Origin: Neisseria sp. 83E34
GTDB taxonomy: Bacteria > Pseudomonadota > Gammaproteobacteria > Burkholderiales > Neisseriaceae
NCBI RefSeq assembly: GCF_001308015.1
Contig: NZ_LGYH01000008.1
Location: 62,001 to 126,000 of the forward strand
DNA: 64,000 bases
Direction: 5' to 3'
Part shown: positions 43,606-54,615 of the stretch, piece by piece
Layout of the letters: the number at the start of each line of letters is the position of its first letter
Position numbering within the stretch: the stretch's first letter is position 1
Program-made: the position numbers and the translations under genes
The notes under the pieces: generated by a model
What the model saw: only the letters and a program-made list of their open reading frames with translations
Told to the model about the DNA's origin: nothing
Databases searched by the model: none

Positions 43606-44511
43606 TTACAAACCGGAAAATGCTTGCTCCGAATAAGTGTGCAAAAAATCCCTTAACGTTTCTGCAGCAGGGGAAAGCGCACGACTACGGCGACGGTAGA
43701 GAAAAAAACTGCGCTCTACCTGCGGTTCGGAAAGTAAGCGCATTACCAGACCGTGCTGCTTCACCCAGTCGGCAGCATATGGTAGACACATCGTTATGCC
43801 CAACCCTGCTTTGGTCATACCCAATGCAGTGGACAGGAAATTCACACGATATCGTGGATGCTTGATGTATTCCGCGGTTTCAGGCGGCAAGGTAGCTGCA
43901 AGCCTGTCTGTAAACGGGCTGCTGAGTGTGATCAGCTGCTCCGATGCCAAATCAGCCCAGCAGACAGCATTTTGCCCTGCCAAACGGTGCTCCGGCTTCA
44001 TAACCAAATAAAAAGGCAATTTAAACAGCAACTCCGATTCGATATCACTGCCGTATGTGCGCTCCGGCCCCAAACCAAAATCCGCTTCGCTGTCTTCCAC
44101 ACGCTGCAATACCTGCTCTACGCTGCAATCAATCAGATTGGTTTGAATATCAGGATATTGGCGTTGAAACGCCGCCATTACAGCCGGCAGAGCAGAAGCG
44201 GCAAGTTGCTGGGAAACGGCGATATGCACTTGCCCCTGATGAAAATTCTTCAGATTTTTCAATTCAATATCCAAAACCGATACTTCATTGATAATTCTTC
44301 TTACCTGCGGCAGCAAATAGCTGCCATAGTCCGATAAATGTAACTGCCGTGTGGTTCGGTCAAACAGCTTAACATCCAAATTGTTTTCCAACTCTTTAAT
44401 CAAGCCGCTTAATGCAGACTGGGTAAGATGCAGTGCCTCCGCTGCACGGGTAAAACTGCCGCAATCGGCCACGGTGATAAATGCCTTAAGTTGACGTAGG
44501 GTAATATTCAT
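43606..44511 (-). CDS. LysR-family transcriptional regulator, likely of the aromatic catabolic genes
   Basis: A 301-aa LysR protein with an N-terminal winged helix (ITLRQLKAFITVADCGSFTRAAEALHLTQSALSGLIKELE in 20-residue halves, about 3-42) and a two-lobe effector domain (about 90-290). It is divergent from hpd across 169 nt. LysR regulators usually act on the divergent operon, so it is the best candidate to control hpd and its neighbours in response to an aromatic effector (inference). The start at 44511 gives MNITLRQLKAF; the ATG at 44523 would add four residues. Confidence 0.88.
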   Translation of the reverse strand: MNITLRQLKAFITVADCGSFTRAAEALHLTQSALSGLIKELENNLDVKLFDRTTRQLHLSDYGSYLLPQVRRIINEVSVLDIELKNLKNFHQGQVHIAVSQQLAASALPAVMAAFQRQYPDIQTNLIDCSVEQVLQRVEDSEADFGLGPERTYGSDIESELLFKLPFYLVMKPEHRLAGQNAVCWADLASEQLITLSSPFTDRLAATLPPETAEYIKHPRYRVNFLSTALGMTKAGLGITMCLPYAADWVKQHGLVMRLLSEPQVERSFFLYRRRSRALSPAAETLRDFLHTYSEQAFSGL

Positions 44512-44523
44512 AAGAAAAACCAA

Positions 44524-44680: not shown

Positions 44681-45766
44681 ATGGCTGATTTGTTTGACAA
44701 CCCCATGGGCTTGTGTGGTTTTGAGTTTGTTGAATTCGCTTCGCCCGAGCCTAATATTTTAGAGCCTTTGTTTGAAAAAATGGGTTTTGCACCAGTGGCA
44801 AAACACCGCTCCAAGGATGTTTTGCTCTATCGTCAGGGCGGCATTAATTTCATTGTCAACCGGGAGCCTAAAAGCGAAGCCGCTTATTTCGCCGCCGAAC
44901 ACGGGTCGAGCGCCTGCGGTATGGCATTCAGAGTGCGTGATGCGCATCAGGCATACAACCGCGCTTTGGAATTGGGCGCTCAGCCGATTGAGATTCCTAC
45001 TTCCGTGATGGAGCTTCGCCTGCCTGCCATCAAAGGCATCGGCGGTGCACCTCTTTATCTGATCGACCGTTTTGAAGAGGGCAAATCCATTTACGATATC
45101 GACTTTGAATTTTTACCTGATGTCGACCGTAATCCCTTCGGTTACGGCCTGAAAGTCGTCGATCACCTCACTCACAATGTTTACCGCGGCCGCATGGATT
45201 ATTGGGCAGGCTTTTATGAAAAGCTTTTCAATTTCAAAGAAATCCGCTATTTCGACATCAAAGGCGAATACACCGGCCTTACCAGCCGTGCGATGACGGC
45301 ACCCGACGGTTTAATCCGGATCCCTTTAAACGAAGAAGCCAAACAAGGCGGCGGTCAGATTGAGGAATACCTGATGCAGTTTGGCGGCGAAGGTATCCAG
45401 CACATTGCCCTGTTGAGCGACAACCTTCCGGAAACCATAGACCAATTGCGCGCCGCCGGCATTCCTTTAATGACTGCACCGCCGGCTACTTATTACGAAA
45501 TGCTCGACGAACGGTTGCCCGGGCACGGCGAACCGGTGGATGAATTGCGTGCGCGCGGTATTCTGCTGGACGGCACAACCGAAGGCGGCCACCCGCGTTT
45601 GTTACTGCAAATTTTTTCCGAAACCTTGTTGGGGCCTGTGTTCTTCGAGTTTATCCAACGCAAAGGCGATTATCGGGAAGGTTTCGGCGAGGGCAACTTC
45701 AAAGCTTTGTTTGAATCACTGGAGCGGGATCAGATCCGCCGCGGTGCGTTGGCGGTTGATGAATAA
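44681..45766 (+). CDS. hpd: 4-hydroxyphenylpyruvate dioxygenase
   Basis: Non-heme iron enzyme converting 4-hydroxyphenylpyruvate to homogentisate. The 361-aa protein is a tandem VOC-fold protein with the His-His-Glu iron site: [10 protein letters not shown] (about 165), [10 protein letters not shown] (about 243) and [10 protein letters not shown] (about 325). The N-terminal region ([11 protein letters not shown]) and the C-terminal [14 protein letters not shown] are typical. Length matches bacterial HPPD. It opens the catabolic cluster and has a strong ribosome site. Confidence 0.97.
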
Positions 45767-45870
45767 TTAGCGCCAGATGATGGCTTTGGTGCCGTTTGAA
45801 TAAATCCATTATAGATAATTTTAATTATCAAACGGCTTTTGCTTCTTAAAATAAAAATTGGAGAAATACA

Positions 45871-47184
45871 TTGAACCAGCAGCCTTATCTCTCAGAGATT
45901 ATTGATAATCGCCCTTTAGGCAAACGCCAATATTGGATTTTGGTAATTTGCGGAATTTTGATGGTATTAGACGGATTTGATGTTCAGTCGGTAAGCTATG
46001 CTGCACCGGCCATTTTGCAGGATTGGCAGATTGAGAAATCTGAATTGGGGGCAGTATTCGGTTCAGGATTATTCGGTTTGTTAATCGGTTCGTTGGTATT
46101 CAGCTATTTTTCCGACAAATTCGGCCGTCGTCCGATTCTGTTGTGGAGTACATTGTTTTTTGCTCTGTGCATGACTGCCACGGCTTTTGTTGAAAACGTT
46201 ACCCAGCTTGTCGCGCTCCGGTTTATCACAGGCTTGGGTCTGGGTGCGATTATGCCAAATGCAATGGCTTTGTGCGGCGAGATTACGCCCAAACACCAGC
46301 GAATTTCAGTCATGATGATGATTTCTTGCGGATTTACCATAGGCGCGATGTTAGGCGGTTTTCTGGCAGCTTTCCTGATTCCGCGCTTCGGCTGGGAATC
46401 TGTATTTTTAGTTGGTGGTGTGCTGCCTTTTTTATTACTCGGCGTGATGATCAAATACATGCCCGAATCTCTGCAATATTTGGCGCTTCGCAATCCGCAA
46501 GATCCGAGGGTACGTCGCGTCTTGGGAGAGTTTTATCCGGATCAGCCTCTGCCGGATAGTGTTCAGACTGCCAAAGCTCAAGGCAGCATGCCGGTTAAGG
46601 CTTTGTTTGAATACGGCCGTCACACGTTTACACTGACAATTTGGGTTATCAGCCTGATGAACATGATTGCACTCTACTTTTTATCAAGCTGGATGCCCAC
46701 CTTAGCCAAGCAAACCGGCATGTCGCTGGAAACTGCGGTGTTGGTTGGCGCAACACTCCAATTGGGAGGCACGATTGGTACTGTGCTGATGGGGCGCATC
46801 ATCGACAGACAGGGTTTCTACAAAGTGCTGATACCGTGTTTTGCTGTGTCGGCCGTATCGATAGCGGCTTTGGGCAGCACCGTTGGATCTATCGGAATGT
46901 TTTTTGCAGTTGTGTTCGTAATCGGATTCACCGTAATCGGCGGTCAGCCTGCAATTAATGCAATGGCAGCCAATTACTATCCTACCGAGTACCGCACTAC
47001 CGGAGTGGGTTGGAGTTTAGGTGTCGGCCGTATTGGTTCTGTTATCGGTCCGGTTTTAGGAGGCTGGCTGGTACATGCAGGTAATTTGAGCCCGCAGCAA
47101 CTGTTTTATTTCGTTGCCGTGCCGTCTGTAGTGATTATTGCTTTCCTCTTTTTACAGAAAATGCTCGGCATTGCCAAAGCATAA
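45871..47184 (+). CDS. MFS transporter, aromatic acid:H+ symporter (AAHS) family
   Basis: A 437-aa inner-membrane protein with 12 predicted helices. DGFDVQSVSYAAPAI (about 30-44) holds the DGFD motif of PcaK/BenK/MhpT transporters, followed by the MFS loop SDKFGRRPIL (about 83) and RFITGLGLGAIMPNA. The family imports benzoate-like aromatic acids with protons, so a tyrosine-pathway acid such as 4-hydroxyphenylpyruvate, 4-hydroxyphenylacetate or homogentisate is a reasonable cargo (inference). The start is TTG, after GGAGAAATACA. It lies between hpd and the VOC gene. Confidence 0.9.
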   Translation: MNQQPYLSEIIDNRPLGKRQYWILVICGILMVLDGFDVQSVSYAAPAILQDWQIEKSELGAVFGSGLFGLLIGSLVFSYFSDKFGRRPILLWSTLFFALCMTATAFVENVTQLVALRFITGLGLGAIMPNAMALCGEITPKHQRISVMMMISCGFTIGAMLGGFLAAFLIPRFGWESVFLVGGVLPFLLLGVMIKYMPESLQYLALRNPQDPRVRRVLGEFYPDQPLPDSVQTAKAQGSMPVKALFEYGRHTFTLTIWVISLMNMIALYFLSSWMPTLAKQTGMSLETAVLVGATLQLGGTIGTVLMGRIIDRQGFYKVLIPCFAVSAVSIAALGSTVGSIGMFFAVVFVIGFTVIGGQPAINAMAANYYPTEYRTTGVGWSLGVGRIGSVIGPVLGGWLVHAGNLSPQQLFYFVAVPSVVIIAFLFLQKMLGIAKA

Positions 47185-47214
47185 TTTCCCATTACATCAT
47201 GAAGGAGAAATATC

Positions 47215-47760
47215 ATGGCTATTACTCAAGGCGTACACCACGCCGCTTACCGCTGCAAAGACGCGAAAGAAACCGTTGAATGGTATCAAAAACACTTGGA
47301 TATGGACTTTGTGTTGGCGATTGCGGAAGACAAAGTGCCATCTACCGGCGAACCTGATCCGTATATGCATATTTTTTTGGATGCCGGCGGCGGTAATATT
47401 CTGGCGTTTTTCGAATTGCCGACCAAACCTGAAATGGGGCGCGATCCCAATACGCCGGTGTGGACACAGCATATTGCTTTCAAAGTGGAAAGCATGGAAA
47501 AACTACTGGCAACCAAAGATAAGCTGATTTCAGAAGGTGTCGATGTGCTCGGGCCTGTAAACCATACTTTGTTCAAATCTATTTATTTCTTTGACCCGAG
47601 CGGCCACCGCATTGAGCTGGCATGCGACATTGCGACTGAAAAAATGAACCGGGCTTTGGATAATGTGAAATGGGATATGCTTAACGAGTGGGCGGAAACA
47701 AAACGTGCTCCGCAGCATGCCCGCTGGATTCACGACGGTACGGAACCGCCGGAAGTTTAA
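47215..47760 (+). CDS. VOC-superfamily metalloprotein in the tyrosine-degradation cluster
   Basis: A 181-aa protein with two VOC beta-alpha modules (about 5-70 and 82-140) and a helical C-terminus. Candidate metal ligands are His8/His9 (GVHHAAY), Glu67 (FFEL), His86 (QHIAFK) and Glu134 (HRIELACD). All four positions of a glyoxalase-type site are filled, and an extradiol-type His-His-Glu set can also be drawn. It is 30 nt from the transporter gene and 90 nt from the FAH-family gene. No cupin-type homogentisate dioxygenase is in the cluster, so this protein may do that step, or a side or detoxifying reaction; sequence alone cannot decide. Confidence 0.85.
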   Translation: MAITQGVHHAAYRCKDAKETVEWYQKHLDMDFVLAIAEDKVPSTGEPDPYMHIFLDAGGGNILAFFELPTKPEMGRDPNTPVWTQHIAFKVESMEKLLATKDKLISEGVDVLGPVNHTLFKSIYFFDPSGHRIELACDIATEKMNRALDNVKWDMLNEWAETKRAPQHARWIHDGTEPPEV

Positions 47761-47849
47761 TCGATTATCACGTTATTCAGCCGTACTTAATGATGAAAAA
47801 GAAAACCGTATTTCGAGATAGAGCCTGAAAATACTAAGAAGGAAAAAAT

Positions 47850-48851
47850 ATGAAATTAGCAACATTGAAACAAGGTGGCCGTGACGGTCGTTTGGCGGTG
47901 GTAAGCCGTGATTTGAGCCGTTATGTATTGCCGGAAATCCAAACCCTGCAAGCTGCTTTAGACGATTGGGCGCAAGCGGAAGGCCGTCTGAAAGCCGTGT
48001 ATGACGACTTGAATGCCAACCCTGAAAAAGGCGAAGCATTCGACCCTGAAAACTGCCATTCCCCTCTGCCGCGCGCCTACCAATGGGCAGACGGATCGGC
48101 TTATCTCAACCATGTGGAATTGGTGCGCAAAGCACGCAATTCCGAAGTGCCCGAGTCATTCTACGATGATCCTTTGATGTATCAGGGCGGCTCGGACAGC
48201 TTTATCGGCCCGCGTGATGAGATTTTGGCTCAGCCGGAATGGGGCATTGATTTTGAAGCGGAAGTGGTGGTGGTGAGCGGAGACTTGCAACAAGGCGCAA
48301 CAAATGAAGAAGCAGCCAAAGCCATCCGCTTGGTAATGTTGGTTAACGATGTGTCACTGCGCAATCTGATTCCTGCCGAGCTCGCCAAAGGTTTCGGCTT
48401 TTTCCAAAGCAAGCCCGCCAGCGCGTTCAGCCCCGTGGCCGTTACGCCTGATGAGTTGGGCGAAGCGTGGAAAGACAATAAAGTGCACCTGCCTTTGCGT
48501 GTAACGCTCAATGGCAAGGCGTTTGGTTTCCCCAATGCCGGCGATGATATGACTTTCGACTTCGGCCGCCTTTTGTCGCATGTGACTAAAACCCGCAACG
48601 CAGCCGCCGGTTCGATTGTCGGCTCGGGCACGGTTTCCAATAAGCAAGACGATCTTTACGGCTCTTCGGTGGAAAACGGCGGTGTAGGTTATTGCTGTTT
48701 GGCGGAGCTGCGCATGTATGAAACCATTGAAACCGGCGTACCGAAAACGCCGTTTATGCAGCACGGCGATGTGGTGGAAATCGAAATGCTGGATAAAGAC
48801 GGCAACAATATTTTCGGCACCATCATCAATAAGGTAAACACGAAATACTGA
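47850..48851 (+). CDS. Fumarylacetoacetate hydrolase family protein
   Basis: Most likely hydrolyses fumarylacetoacetate to fumarate and acetoacetate, the last tyrosine-degradation step. The 333-aa protein has an N-terminal domain (about 1-75) of the kind seen in the betaproteobacterial FahA-like group. The catalytic FAH domain (about 90-325) includes FIGPRDEI, IDFEAEVVVV (metal Glu pair, about 133), NDVSLRNLIPAEL (about 170) and VGSGTVSNKQDD (about 255). It is about 90 aa shorter than mammalian FAH, so related hydrolases of other 2,4-diketo acids are alternatives; the context favours fumarylacetoacetate. Confidence 0.88.
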   Translation: MKLATLKQGGRDGRLAVVSRDLSRYVLPEIQTLQAALDDWAQAEGRLKAVYDDLNANPEKGEAFDPENCHSPLPRAYQWADGSAYLNHVELVRKARNSEVPESFYDDPLMYQGGSDSFIGPRDEILAQPEWGIDFEAEVVVVSGDLQQGATNEEAAKAIRLVMLVNDVSLRNLIPAELAKGFGFFQSKPASAFSPVAVTPDELGEAWKDNKVHLPLRVTLNGKAFGFPNAGDDMTFDFGRLLSHVTKTRNAAAGSIVGSGTVSNKQDDLYGSSVENGGVGYCCLAELRMYETIETGVPKTPFMQHGDVVEIEMLDKDGNNIFGTIINKVNTKY

Positions 48852-48860
48852 CCTTAACCC

Positions 48861-48904
48861 CATGCCTGTCTGAAAGCACACGGCATCATTTTCAGACAGG
48901 CATT
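48861..48904 (+). terminator. DUS-pair hairpin after the FAH-family gene
   Basis: A DUS (48863-48874) and its complement (48891-48902) with a 16-nt loop; it separates hpd-MFS-VOC-FAH from the NhaC gene. Confidence 0.7.
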
Positions 48905-49009
48905 GCATCCAATATAGATTTATTAACAAGTGCTGCAATAAGAAACGATGCGTATCAAATCAATACTTTGGCGCATTAAGACCACAAAATGAAAAAAGAG
49001 GAGGAGCAC

Positions 49010-50401
49010 ATGGATAAAGCATTATTGAGAATGAGGCCGCGGGAGGCTTTATTGATTGCCGTGATGGTGGTCGCCGTGATGGGCACAACCATGATCGGTT
49101 TTGAATGGGTGCCGCATTTATCGGTAATTTTCGTATTGTGCGGTTTGATGGTATTCGGCAAATATAAAAAAATATCGTTTAAAAACATGCAAAGCGGCAT
49201 GGCTTCGGGTGTGGTATCCGGAATCGGCGCGATTTATCTGTTTTTCTTTATCGGCCTGTTGGTTTCTGCGCTGATGATGGCCGGGTCGATTCCCACCTTG
49301 ATTGATTACGGCTTCGAGCTGATTTCGCCAAAAATATTTTATCTTTCCGCTTTCCTGCTGACGGCCGTTATCGGTATGGCCATCGGCAGCAGCCTCACCA
49401 CTTGCGCCACTTTGGGCGTGGCCTTCATCGGCATGGGCAGCGCGTTTGCCGCAAATCCGGCGATTGTTGCCGGAGCGGTCGTATCTGGTGCTTTTTTCGG
49501 AGACAAAATGTCGCCGCTTTCCGACACCACCAGCATTGCCGCATCAATAGTGGGCATTGATTTGTTCGAGCATATCCGAAACATGATGTATACCACTCTG
49601 CCCGCTTTTGCGATTACCGCGGTTATATTTTGGATTTTGTCGGGTAATCTCAATTCTGCCGATCTGGCCGGCGTGCAGGCTTTCAGAACGCAATTGGAAG
49701 CCAGCGGTTTGGTGCACGGTTATACTTTGCTTCCTTTTTTTGTGTTGCTGGTTTTGGCTGTCAAAAAAGTAAACGCCATTTACACCATTATCGCCACGAT
49801 TTTAACCGCCTTGCTTATCACGTTTATCCACAGCAGCCCCACAATTTCTCAGCTGGGCGGCTACTTTTTCACAGGCTACAAGCCCAACGAAGGTGTAGAT
49901 TTGGGCGAAGTGGGCAAGCTGATTTCGCGCGGCGGCATCAACAGCATGTTTTTCACCCAAACCATCGTGATTCTGGCTTTAAGCTTGGGCGGACTGCTGA
50001 ACACTTTAGGCGTTTTGCCGGCACTTTTGGCCGGAGTCGGCCATGTGCTGACCAATGCCGGACGCGCCACCTTTACCGTAGCCGCTACGGCGTTAGGCAT
50101 CAACGTGTTAATCGGCGAACAATACTTGAGCCTGCTCTTGGCCGGCAACACTTTCAAACCGGTTTATGAAAGGCTTGGCCTGCACCCGCGCAATATCTCG
50201 CGCACCGTAGAAGACGCAGGTACGGTTATCAACCCATTGGTACCCTGGAGCGTGTGCGGCGTGTTTATCAGCAATGTGCTGGGTGTGCAAGTGATTGATT
50301 ATTTACCTTATGCTTTCTTTTGTTATCTGAGTTTGGCGTTGACGCTGGTGTTCGGATTTACGGGATTAACGCTGAGTAAAGCCGAAAAAGAACCCGCATA
50401 A
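49010..50401 (+). CDS. NhaC-family Na+/H+ antiporter-type transporter
   Basis: A 463-aa inner-membrane protein with about 11-12 hydrophobic helices, recognised as NhaC family: AVVSGAFFGDKMSPLSDTTS (about 155-174) is the family's central signature with the conserved Asp residues. Members exchange Na+/H+ or couple ion flow to organic substrates such as malate/lactate. Its place inside a tyrosine-degradation island suggests a substrate transporter, perhaps for tyrosine, rather than pH control (inference). The ATG at 49010 follows a near-ideal GAGGAGGAG; an ATG at 48989 was rejected. Confidence 0.85.
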   Translation: MDKALLRMRPREALLIAVMVVAVMGTTMIGFEWVPHLSVIFVLCGLMVFGKYKKISFKNMQSGMASGVVSGIGAIYLFFFIGLLVSALMMAGSIPTLIDYGFELISPKIFYLSAFLLTAVIGMAIGSSLTTCATLGVAFIGMGSAFAANPAIVAGAVVSGAFFGDKMSPLSDTTSIAASIVGIDLFEHIRNMMYTTLPAFAITAVIFWILSGNLNSADLAGVQAFRTQLEASGLVHGYTLLPFFVLLVLAVKKVNAIYTIIATILTALLITFIHSSPTISQLGGYFFTGYKPNEGVDLGEVGKLISRGGINSMFFTQTIVILALSLGGLLNTLGVLPALLAGVGHVLTNAGRATFTVAATALGINVLIGEQYLSLLLAGNTFKPVYERLGLHPRNISRTVEDAGTVINPLVPWSVCGVFISNVLGVQVIDYLPYAFFCYLSLALTLVFGFTGLTLSKAEKEPA

Positions 50402-50409
50402 TTTGTACA

Positions 50410-50443
50410 CACGGTTTTCAGACAGGCCTGTCTGAAAACCGTG
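50410..50443. terminator. 34-bp perfect palindrome of fused DUS arms
   Basis: CACGGTTTTCAGACAGG followed by its exact complement, with no spacer. Each arm carries 11 of 12 DUS bases (the first T is replaced by G). It lies between the NhaC and maiA genes and may end the former's transcript, though the hairpin overlaps the maiA leader. Confidence 0.75.
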
Positions 50444-50458
50444 CCGAAGGATTCGTTT

Positions 50459-51100
50459 ATGAAACTCTATTCTTACTATCGAAGCTCTGCCGCCTACCGT
50501 GTGCGCATCGCCCTGAATCTGAAAAAACTGGCTTACGATACCGCATTCGTTCATTTGGTTAAGCAAGGCGGTGAGCAGAAATTACCGGAATATGCAAAGT
50601 TAAACCCGCAAAAACTGGTTCCCTCTTTGGAAGATAAGGGGCAAATATTTACCCAATCGCTGGCCATCATCGAATATCTGGACGAAACCCATCCCGAGCA
50701 CCCACTGCTCCCCGCTGCACCTGCCGAACGCGCCCGCGTACGCGCCCTCTCCCAGCTGATTGCCTGTGACACCCATCCTTTAAACAATTTGAGGGTGCTG
50801 CAATACTTGCAAAACCAATTGGGTGCAAGCGAAGCCGCTAAAACAGAATGGTACAGCCATTGGATTCAAGAAAGCTTTACCGCTTTGGAAAGTATGCTGC
50901 AATCGGCGCAAACCGGCCGTTTCTGCCACGGTAACACGCCCACTTTAGCCGATTGCTGCCTGATTCCCCAGGTTTACAATGCACGCCGTTTCAACGTTGA
51001 TTTATCTGCTTATCCGACCATTATGCGCATTGTCGGCGAATGTGAGTCTTTGCCGGAATTTCAGGCAGCTGCACCGGAAAACCAACCGGACGCAGAATAA
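50459..51100 (+). CDS. maiA: Maleylacetoacetate isomerase
   Basis: Glutathione-dependent zeta-class GST that converts maleylacetoacetate to fumarylacetoacetate. The 213-aa protein has the signature active-site motif YSYYRSSAAYRVRIALNLK (about 4-22) with the catalytic Ser pair, and the GST C-terminal domain (about 90-205) with NTPTLADCCLIPQVYNARRF. The ATG at 50459 follows GAAGGATT; the 50441 ATG lies within the palindrome. Its function directly supports a homogentisate route in the cluster. Confidence 0.93.
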   Translation: MKLYSYYRSSAAYRVRIALNLKKLAYDTAFVHLVKQGGEQKLPEYAKLNPQKLVPSLEDKGQIFTQSLAIIEYLDETHPEHPLLPAAPAERARVRALSQLIACDTHPLNNLRVLQYLQNQLGASEAAKTEWYSHWIQESFTALESMLQSAQTGRFCHGNTPTLADCCLIPQVYNARRFNVDLSAYPTIMRIVGECESLPEFQAAAPENQPDAE

Positions 51101-51224
51101 GCGTATGCCTGTCTGTATCTGCAAACAAAATAGGCGCCGCGATAAGCTTCATAAACTTGAGCATGACAGATGATTTCAGGTGGTAAGATTAAGTCTCATT
51201 GCACAGCAACAATCGGAGTAATAG

Positions 51225-52025
51225 ATGTCTACCCTTCCCCAATATGATTTACAAGGCAAAACCGTATTGATTACCGGTGCGGCCAGCGGTATCGGACGTG
51301 ATATGTCCGTAGAATTCGGTCGTGCAGGAGCCAATGTCGGTGTGGCTGATTTAAACCTCGAGCAGGCTGAAGCAGTAGCAGAACACATCGCCTCTAAAGG
51401 CGGGCGGGCAATCGCCGTGGGTATGGATGTGAGCGATGAAAACCAAGTCAACGCCGGCACGGCCAAAGTAGTGCAGGCATTCGGCAGAATAGACGTATTG
51501 GTGTCAAATGCCGGCATACAGATTATCAACCCGATTGATAAATTGTCGTTTGCAGAATGGAAAAAAATGCTCGCTATCCATCTCGACGGCGCATTCCTCA
51601 CCACTCGTGCGGCCCTGAAATATATGTACGCAGATAAGCGGGGCGGAACGGTCATTTATATGGGCTCCGTCCACTCCCATGAAGCCTCGCCGCTGAAAGC
51701 ACCTTATGTCACTGCCAAACACGGCTTGCTGGGGCTAAACCGCGTATTGGCGAAAGAAGGCGCGGAGCATAATGTGCGCTCGCATGTTATCTGCCCGGGG
51801 TTTGTGAGAACACCGCTGGTTGAGCAGCAAATTCCCTTACAAGCACGGGAAAAAAACATCAGTGAAGAAGAAGTGGTTAAAAACATTATGCTGGGCAATA
51901 CGGTTGATGGTGAGTTTACTACCACGGAAGACATCACACAGCTTGCATTGTTTTTGGCAGCCTTCCCCAACAATGTATTTACCGGGCAGTCTTTTATTGC
52001 CAGCCACGGTTGGTCTATGAAATAA
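51225..52025 (+). CDS. bdhA: D-3-hydroxybutyrate dehydrogenase
   Basis: NAD-dependent SDR that interconverts 3-hydroxybutyrate and acetoacetate. The 266-aa protein has [10 protein letters not shown] (about 18-27), SNAGIQ (about 93), catalytic Ser in [11 protein letters not shown] (about 146) and the [10 protein letters not shown] Tyr-Lys (about 165). [16 protein letters not shown] (here ICPGF, about 190) and the SHGWSMK end match bacterial BDH. It heads the bdhA-scoA-scoB-atoB block and feeds on the acetoacetate made by tyrosine breakdown. Confidence 0.9.
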
Positions 52026-52040
52026 CCATAAGGAGAAAAA

Positions 52041-52739
52041 ATGAACAAACTTTACCCTGATGCGCCCACAGCGCTAAACGACATCGTAGCAAACGGCCAA
52101 ACCATTGCCGTGGGCGGTTTCGGCCTGTGCGGCATTCCGGAAGCGCTGATTGCCGCCCTGCGCGACAGCGGCGTGAGCGGCCTTACCTGCATCAGCAACA
52201 ACGCAGGCGTTGACGGCTTCGGCCTCGGACTTTTATTGGAAAGCCACCAAATCAAAAAAATGATTGCTTCCTATGTGGGTGAAAACAAAGAATTCGAGCG
52301 GCAATTTTTATCGGGAGAACTGGAAGTGGAGCTTACCCCGCAAGGCACTTTGGCAGAAAAACTGCGTGCAGGCGGTGCAGGCATTCCTGCTTTTTTTACA
52401 CGCACAGGTGTGGGCACGCAAGTGGCCGAAGGTAAAGAAACACGCGAATTCGACGGGCTGGAATATGTGATGGAGCGCTCGCTCACAGCCGATGTTTCTC
52501 TGGTAAAAGCCTGGAAAGCCGATAAAACAGGCAATCTTGTTTTCCGCAAAACCGCGCGCAATTTCAACCCTGATGTTGCCTCTGCCGGAAAAATCACTGT
52601 GGCGGAAGTGGAAGAAATTGTGGAAGTCGGCGGGCTGGATCCCGACTGCATCCACTTGCCCGGCATTTATGTACATCGGATCATCGTTAACAAAAATCCA
52701 GAAAAACGCATTGAACAACGCACCACAAGGGAGATATAA
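52041..52739 (+). CDS. scoA: Succinyl-CoA:3-ketoacid CoA-transferase, subunit A
   Basis: Alpha subunit that, with ScoB, moves CoA from succinyl-CoA to acetoacetate. The 232-aa protein shows the family I CoA-transferase pattern [14 protein letters not shown] (about 25-38), [12 protein letters not shown] (about 54-65), and [16 protein letters not shown] (about 112-127). It starts 15 nt after bdhA with AAGGAGAA, and ends 2 nt before scoB. Confidence 0.95.
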
Positions 52740-52741
52740 GC

Positions 52742-53371
52742 ATGGCTTGGACACGGGAACAAATGGCGCAACGCGCCGCCAAAGAGCTGCAAGACGGATT
52801 CTACGTCAACCTCGGCATCGGCCTGCCCACATTGGTTGCCAACTACATTCCCGCAGGCATGGACGTGATGTTGCAATCAGAAAACGGCCTCTTGGGCATA
52901 GGCGCTTTCCCCACCGAAGAAGAAATCGACCCCGACCTGATCAACGCAGGCAAACAAACCGTTACCGCACAACCCGGCGCCAGCTTTTTCCCCAGCTCCC
53001 AATCTTTCGCCATGATACGCGGCGGCAAAATCAATCTGGCGATTCTCGGCGCGATGGAAGTATCCGAGCAAGGCGATCTGGCCAACTGGATGATTCCGGG
53101 CAAAATGGTTAAAGGCATGGGCGGCGCCATGGATTTGGTGGCCGGCGTGCAGCGCGTGATAGTGTTGATGGAGCACACCGCCAAAGGAGGCGCATTCAAA
53201 ATCAAACCGCAGTGTGATCTGCCGCTAACCGGCAAACAAGTGGTGCACCGCATCATTACCGATCTGGGCGTGTTGGACGTAGTTGAAGGTAAATTAAAAC
53301 TGGTGGAGCTGGCCGACGGCGTGAGCTTTAAAGCGTTGCAGGCTGCCACCGGCGTAACCATTGGGCAATAA
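52742..53371 (+). CDS. scoB: Succinyl-CoA:3-ketoacid CoA-transferase, subunit B
   Basis: Catalytic beta subunit. The 209-aa protein contains [17 protein letters not shown] (about 22-38) and the active-site Glu motif SENGLLGIG (about 45-53), followed by [14 protein letters not shown] and [20 protein letters not shown]. Length and coupling to scoA are standard. Together the subunits yield acetoacetyl-CoA for AtoB. Confidence 0.96.
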
Positions 53372-53374
53372 CAA

Positions 53375-53415
53375 TATGCCTGTCTGAAAACCGCTTGATT
53401 TTTCAGACAGGCATA
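53375..53415 (+). terminator. DUS-pair hairpin between scoB and atoB
   Basis: A DUS (53377-53388) and its complement (53402-53413) with a 13-nt loop. atoB may still be reached by readthrough. Confidence 0.7.
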
Positions 53416-53433
53416 GTTTGAAAGGTTGTATTT

Positions 53434-54615
53434 ATGAGCAAAGAAATCGTCATCGTTGCCGCAAAGCGAACACCGATCGGCAGCTTTTCGGGCAGCCTTG
53501 CCGGCGTACGCGCCCCCGATTTGGGCGCGGTGGTCATCAAAGCCTTGCTGGATCAAACTGGTGTTGCCCTCGAAGCCGTGAACGAAGTGATTATGGGCAA
53601 CGTGCTGACAACCGGCATTGGTCAAAACCCCGCCCGCCAAGCCGCCATATCGGCCGGTTTACCTGCAAAAACACCCGCTACCACGGTAAACGTGGTGTGC
53701 GGTTCTGGGCTGAAAGCGGTGCAGATGGCTGCGCAAGCGGTTGCCTGCGGCGACGCCGAAATCGTGATTGCCGGCGGGCAGGAATCCATGTCGCAAAGCC
53801 CGCATTTCATTCACATGCGCGGCGGCATAAAAATGGGCAACGGTGAATTGACCGACAGCATGGTGTTCGACGGCCTCACCGACATTTACAGCCGCTACCA
53901 CATGGGCATTACCGCGGAAAACATTGCCGAGCGCCTCAATATCGGCCGCCAAGAGCAAGACGCATTTGCCCTGAAATCGCAGCAAAAAGCCGCAGCCGCA
54001 CAAGCAGCCGGCAAATTTGATGAAGAAATCGTGCCCGTATCCATTGTCCAACGCAAAGGCGACCCGATCAGCTTTGAGCGCGACGAATACATTAAAGCCG
54101 GCAGCAGCGCCGAAAAACTCGCCGCTTTGCGCCCCGCGTTCAAAAAAGACGGAACGGTAACCGCAGGCAACGCTTCCGGTATCAACGACGGCGCAGCCGC
54201 CGTGATGGTCATGAGTGCCGAAAAAGCCGCCGAACTCGACCTGAAACCACTCGCGACCATCCGTGGTTATGCCGCTACCGGTATCGAACCGGAAATAATG
54301 GGATTAGGCCCGGTTGATGCGGTTAGACACACGCTGAACAAAGCCGGCTGGCGTATCGAAGACGTAGATTTATTTGAAGCCAACGAAGCCTTTGCCGTGC
54401 AGTCTTTGGGCGTGATGCAGCAATTGGGTTTGCCGCCGGAAAAAACCAATGTCAACGGCGGTGCCATTGCGCTCGGCCACCCCATCGGCGCTTCAGGCTG
54501 CCGTATTCTAGTAACCCTGCTGCACGAAATGCAGCGCAGCGGCAAACGCAAAGGTATCGCCACTTTGTGCGTGGGCGGCGGCATGGGATTGGCTTTGGCG
54601 GTGGAGCGCGGATAA
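53434..54615 (+). CDS. atoB: Acetyl-CoA C-acetyltransferase (thiolase)
   Basis: Splits acetoacetyl-CoA into two acetyl-CoA (or the reverse). The 393-aa protein has the three thiolase catalytic sites: Cys in [14 protein letters not shown] (about 87), His in [15 protein letters not shown] (about 340-354) and Cys in [10 protein letters not shown] (about 378). The substrate-loop region (about 120-250) is normal in length. It completes the path from acetoacetate to acetyl-CoA. Confidence 0.96.

Follow-up and report, generated by a model that had tools for sequence, protein, structure and literature searches.

The stretch analysed here (the window) is 64,000 nucleotides of Neisseria sp. 83E34 DNA (contig NZ_LGYH01000008.1, positions 62,001 to 126,000), and it contains a cluster of ten aromatic-catabolism genes at 44681-54615. 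Sequence comparisons make it very likely that this cluster is a complete homogentisate pathway, in which a small protein of the vicinal oxygen chelate (VOC) fold, encoded at 47215-47760, takes the place of the cupin enzyme HmgA as ring opener. The assignment is made because the VOC protein is related to Protein Data Bank (PDB) entry 9u42, no HmgA was found, and VOC and HmgA replace each other across genomes. It is also made because VOC and the homogentisate-making enzyme Hpd share the same family genomes, VOC genes lie near those for Hpd, fumarylacetoacetate hydrolase (FAH) and MaiA, and four residues of the VOC protein match catalytic positions of an extradiol dioxygenase and are invariant among its relatives. 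The missing step is very probably a non-homologous replacement of HmgA, known in kind from a deposited structure.

Residues 6-174 of the VOC protein align to 9u42_A with 60% identity (E 1.2e-71). The PDB entry, released on 2025-07-23, is titled "Crystal Structure of Homogentisate 1,2-Dioxygenase from Acinetobacter in Complex with Zn ion" and its molecule name is Glyoxalase. Fe(II) would be the working metal of the VOC protein, though 9u42 was solved with Zn. The protein contains no HgmA_N or HgmA_C cupin domains and matches PF13669 below the cut-off. Its H86, H117, Y124 and E134 align with residues 214, 246, 255 and 265 of catechol 2,3-dioxygenase 1mpy, which are catalytic positions there. All four are unchanged in 89 of 89 distinct VOC relatives (from 102 loci with a match), which are mostly the best 80 of 576, distant relatives being under-represented. 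An extradiol signature pattern is present in all 89, compared with 2 of 100,000 shuffled versions of the window protein. The AlphaFold model of the VOC protein has a pLDDT of 86.7 and a pTM of 0.80, and its top Foldseek match is 9u42 (E 3.7e-21).

Another ring-cleaving dioxygenase could open homogentisate, leaving the VOC protein with a different role. The genome holds 10 PF00903 matches, among them Hpd, VOC, a catechol 2,3-dioxygenase and a lactoylglutathione lyase, and the clearest candidate is the catechol 2,3-dioxygenase (C12:215098-215877), a two-domain VOC protein of 308 amino acids (aa) that scores 422.6 bits on TIGR03211 (cut-off 320.2). However, that model is a catechol-specific equivalog, the gene lies on another contig, the protein is not the 9u42 relative, and just one of its regions aligns well to the window VOC protein (36% over 55 columns). 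Judged by sequence, this enzyme is unlikely to be the homogentisate opener, and the explanation as a whole is very improbable. At its locus on contig C12 (L192:1375-2301, minus strand) a ferredoxin-like open reading frame lies upstream, in a separate meta-cleavage route.

The possibility that HmgA is encoded elsewhere, raised by the sequence-only reading of the window, was followed up in the whole assembly (2.42 Mb, 40 contigs, draft, completeness rated 100%). Neither PF04209 nor PF20510 had a match in the genome, and the Caulobacter control matched both. Usual HmgA (PF04209) was likewise absent from all 83 family genomes searched. Short HmgA proteins of 376-379 aa were seen between Hpd and FAH at L181:5825-6961 (minus strand) and L182:6753-7880 (plus strand). 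As short HmgA reaches 88.9 bits on TIGR01015, far under the cut-off of 510.75, models may miss it. A profile (A2) of two short divergent HmgA proteins picks up both usual and short forms (58 of 370 class genomes) and matched none of the 83 family genomes, that of Neisseria sp. 83E34 included. The draft state of the assembly and the existence of divergent forms leave some room for a cupin HmgA in an assembly gap, or one too divergent for the searches, with VOC as an accessory. Against this stand the empty searches in a genome rated complete, the absence of both forms from the family, its 12 Hpd genomes included, and the fact that VOC and HmgA forms never occur together in the class sample, unlike what is expected of an accessory. 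An HmgA elsewhere in this genome was rejected on the three empty searches, and the wider explanation retains very little probability. The observation that the cluster has no HmgA-type candidate thus extends to the genome, and the other option offered at the time, that a non-homologous enzyme within the cluster opens the ring, is strongly supported.

VOC orthologues (86-100% identity) were found in 12 of the 83 family genomes, exactly those with true Hpd, defined as a match above the model cut-off. Three further family genomes have weaker Hpd-like matches only, and one has a VOC match of 20 bits. Across 370 class genomes VOC scores form groups: nine genomes are at or above 277 bits, two at 152-155 and the remainder at or below 92. 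Counts in this sample are 9 for VOC, 45 for usual HmgA (leaving out two weak matches, shown to be the short form), 14 for short HmgA and 60 for true Hpd. No two of the three ring openers occur together in any genome. The 60 Hpd genomes divide into 34 with usual HmgA, 13 with short HmgA, 8 with VOC and 5 with none, so that exactly one opener is present in 55; among genomes without Hpd, usual HmgA is present in 11, short HmgA in 1 and VOC in 1. A Fisher test of VOC against any HmgA in the Hpd genomes gives 5e-7, with relatedness ignored. The nine VOC genomes are spread over seven families, two of which also contain HmgA: f124 (VOC in G204, HmgA in G384) and f18 (VOC in G097, short HmgA in G326). 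In G204 a TAG is listed inside the match, yet the reading frame is open for 179 aa.

Eighteen class Hpd genomes (16 plus the two weak matches) lack usual HmgA and VOC. They were considered as counter-evidence; short HmgA explains 13 of them, and five others are left. Genome G170 has Hpd-FAH-MaiA and no known ring opener within the fetched stretch. In G173 and G280 the fetched stretch shows Hpd without FAH or MaiA; both genomes also have a VOC relative, scoring 152-155 bits and located far from Hpd (L174:7547-8158, L175 near 7646, L176 and L177), and these relatives are possibly more distant members of the same enzyme class. G418 and G136 (L188, L189) have Hpd but none of the known ring openers, and neither FAH nor MaiA was matched in the fetched stretch.

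Gene neighbourhoods agree with this exchange. Eight class genomes carry VOC as well as Hpd, and in seven of them the two genes are no more than 1.5 kb apart. The orders Hpd-VOC-FAH-MaiA (L169) and Hpd-FahA-VOC-MaiA (L167) compare with Hpd-HmgA-FAH-MaiA (L149), FahA being a second FAH type, fumarylacetoacetase TIGR01266 (598.8 bits in L178). Neighbours were also counted within 5 kb of VOC in 80 named loci, some of them cut by contig ends. Either FAH type is present in 60, MaiA in 30, a LysR regulator like that of the window in 20 and Hpd in 14; usual or short HmgA is present in none.

A flavin (FAD) monooxygenase resembling that of L050 or that of L172 is present in 43 of the 80 loci; the L050 and L172 enzymes are PRK08132 proteins and match MhpA models as well. 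The excess of these over Hpd would fit a VOC protein that belongs to the cluster and acts on another aromatic, for example gentisate or hydroquinone. However, MaiA and FAH go along with VOC, and Hpd accompanies it in the window and in 11 further family genomes. In addition, according to the available text of PMC3053370, MhaA of Pseudomonas putida U, a flavoprotein comparable in length (560-566 aa) and earlier annotated as MhpA, converts 3-hydroxyphenylacetate to homogentisate. A different aromatic substrate is therefore most unlikely. In genomes G006 and G008, VOC has FahA, MaiA, an AAHS transporter and a fusion of P450 and reductase as neighbours; the fusion protein matches 6kbh almost end to end and the P450 RhF (6ro8) over the haem part. 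RhF is a CYP116B protein, and a CYP116B enzyme of Cupriavidus makes homogentisate from 2-hydroxyphenylacetate, as far as the accessible part of PMC8449657 goes. By analogy, the P450 and FAD monooxygenases beside VOC may supply homogentisate likewise. VOC occupies the position of HmgA next to FAH and MaiA also where the probable supplier of homogentisate is a P450 like CYP116B or a monooxygenase like MhaA, so that VOC seems tied to homogentisate itself, regardless of its source. A role as a helper of Hpd was rejected, because VOC is present in G005-G008 without true Hpd and in G006 and G008 has the company just described.

Several observations weigh against a VOC ring opener. Genomes G005-G008, of one genus in the family, carry a VOC relative of 61-62% identity without true Hpd, and G214, one of the nine class VOC genomes, also lacks it. 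Five of the 60 class Hpd genomes carry none of the three openers, and in 19 of the 80 named loci, some loci being cut by contig ends, neither Hpd nor FAH nor MaiA lies up to 5 kb from VOC. The AlphaFold model superposes poorly on a single chain of 9u42 (root-mean-square deviation 16.8, TM 0.41/0.44), for which domain swapping or wrong packing of modules in the model are candidate causes. The function of 9u42 is taken from its depositor's title, as no publication on 9u42 or on a VOC-type homogentisate dioxygenase was found in the literature searched, of which coverage is partial. Finally, in the portion of PMC7646211 available, pigment-making A. baumannii AB4353 has no hmgA homologue and a type I ring-cleaving gene, supposed inactive, between hmgC and hmgR; this strain makes pigment despite that gene, a possible VOC orthologue.

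Two other A. baumannii reports use the name hmgA. Interruption of a gene called hmgA leads to pyomelanin and its overexpression to loss of pigment in the accessible text of PMC9431530. The hmgA reference used in PMC11945678, as its available part gives it, has 633 bases, too short for usual HmgA, which has about 430 aa. The hmg regulators are the subject of PMC5343134, to judge from an extract. Homogentisate is not mentioned in the available main text of PMC9007349, and in PMC12718150 it occurs only within the reference list.

The cluster consists of ten uninterrupted open reading frames, Hpd through AtoB, all on the plus strand with intergenic spacing of 2-137 bases; a LysR gene precedes it, 157 bases from Hpd and in the opposite direction. 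The features are:

43606-44523, minus strand: LysR-type regulator, divergent from the cluster (PF00126 and PF03466)
44681-45766, plus strand: Hpd, 4-hydroxyphenylpyruvate dioxygenase, homogentisate-making (TIGR01263 390.6 bits, cut-off 277)
45871-47184, plus strand: AAHS-type MFS transporter (best match TIGR00895, 387 bits, just below the cut-off of 418.55)
47215-47760, plus strand: predicted VOC-fold homogentisate 1,2-dioxygenase, 181 aa (60% identity to 9u42; PF00903 65 bits, cut-off 20.6)
47850-48851, plus strand: FAH-family fumarylacetoacetate hydrolase, 333-aa type (PF01557 and PF18288)
48989-50401, plus strand: NhaC-family transporter (TIGR00931 383.6 bits, cut-off 370; PF03553)
50441-51100, plus strand: MaiA, maleylacetoacetate isomerase (TIGR01262 310.2 bits, cut-off 171.05)
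51225-52025, plus strand: BdhA, 3-hydroxybutyrate dehydrogenase (NF009931 412.4 bits, cut-off 340)
52041-52739, plus strand: ScoA, 3-oxoacid CoA-transferase subunit A (TIGR02429 250.2 bits, cut-off 128.5)
52742-53371, plus strand: ScoB, 3-oxoacid CoA-transferase subunit B (TIGR02428 320.5 bits, cut-off 243.55)
53434-54615, plus strand: AtoB, acetyl-CoA acetyltransferase (TIGR01930 483.6 bits, cut-off 240.55)

The ten genes named by the sequence-only reading are thus intact, on one strand and matched to the families listed. That reading had listed the VOC protein and missed its likely role as ring opener, a type already deposited as homogentisate 1,2-dioxygenase. With the VOC protein counted as ring opener, Hpd, MaiA and FAH make up a homogentisate pathway in one cluster. 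Hpd would convert 4-hydroxyphenylpyruvate to homogentisate, the VOC protein would open its ring to maleylacetoacetate in place of cupin HmgA (both activity and product being predicted), MaiA would isomerise the ring-opening product and FAH would split the isomer, giving fumarate and acetoacetate. Acetoacetate would then pass to acetyl-CoA through ScoAB and AtoB, with BdhA tying in 3-hydroxybutyrate. On gene content, the earlier proposal that tyrosine carbon flows to fumarate and acetyl-CoA is supported. The LysR protein is the probable regulator of the cluster, and the AAHS transporter probably takes up an aromatic acid. The NhaC-family protein may be a carrier of an aromatic substrate instead of a Na+/H+ antiporter; it is also found in 11 of the 80 named loci, with titles that are all Neisseria, Eikenella or Moraxella.

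Among named matches, that in N. wadsworthii 9715 is the best for the VOC gene (99% identity), and the ten-gene set is present there at 90-99%. A metagenome-assembled genome labelled Moraxella sp. (L031) has Hpd, VOC, FAH, NhaC, MaiA, ScoA and ScoB in the window order at 56-89% identity. The conserved order in L031, together with the patchy presence of the cluster in the family (12/83), suggests that the cluster was transferred horizontally, unless that assembly is mislabelled. Homogentisate dioxygenases of the VOC fold probably form a third class that is widespread, moves between lineages, has repeatedly replaced cupin HmgA (seven families of the class sample) and serves any homogentisate route, be it through Hpd, a P450 of the CYP116B type or a monooxygenase like MhaA. 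In clusters of this kind Hpd and the ring opener, successive dioxygenases that both attack the ring, would then each be built on VOC modules.

The VOC protein clears no NCBIfam cut-off (TIGR03211: 39.5 bits against 320.2), and model-based annotation would therefore leave a hole in the pathway. With the assignment, the tyrosine pathway becomes complete in Neisseria, Moraxella, Pelistega and others of the loci fetched, and it can be predicted which bacteria would brown once the VOC gene is lost. The enzyme type itself is not new, having already been crystallised from Acinetobacter and deposited as homogentisate 1,2-dioxygenase.

Among known systems, the closest is Acinetobacter 9u42, which like the window protein is a single VOC protein of about 180 aa and differs in coming from another genus. 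The VOC proteins of G006 and G008 look nearer to 9u42, but their cluster differs from that of the window in having TIGR01266 FahA and the P450. Cupin HmgA (PF20510/PF04209, TIGR01015; usual and short) shares the pathway position and the place beside Hpd, FAH and MaiA, yet belongs to an unrelated protein family and was not found in the genome. Type I extradiol dioxygenases such as catechol 2,3-dioxygenase (TIGR03211, 1mpy) cleave ortho-diols and have two modules, whereas the VOC protein has one and scores far below the TIGR03211 cut-off; the two share the VOC fold and the counterparts of H86, H117, Y124 and E134. The hydroquinone dioxygenases PcpA and LinE are VOC enzymes acting on para-diols, and would resemble the window protein in fold and in type of substrate.

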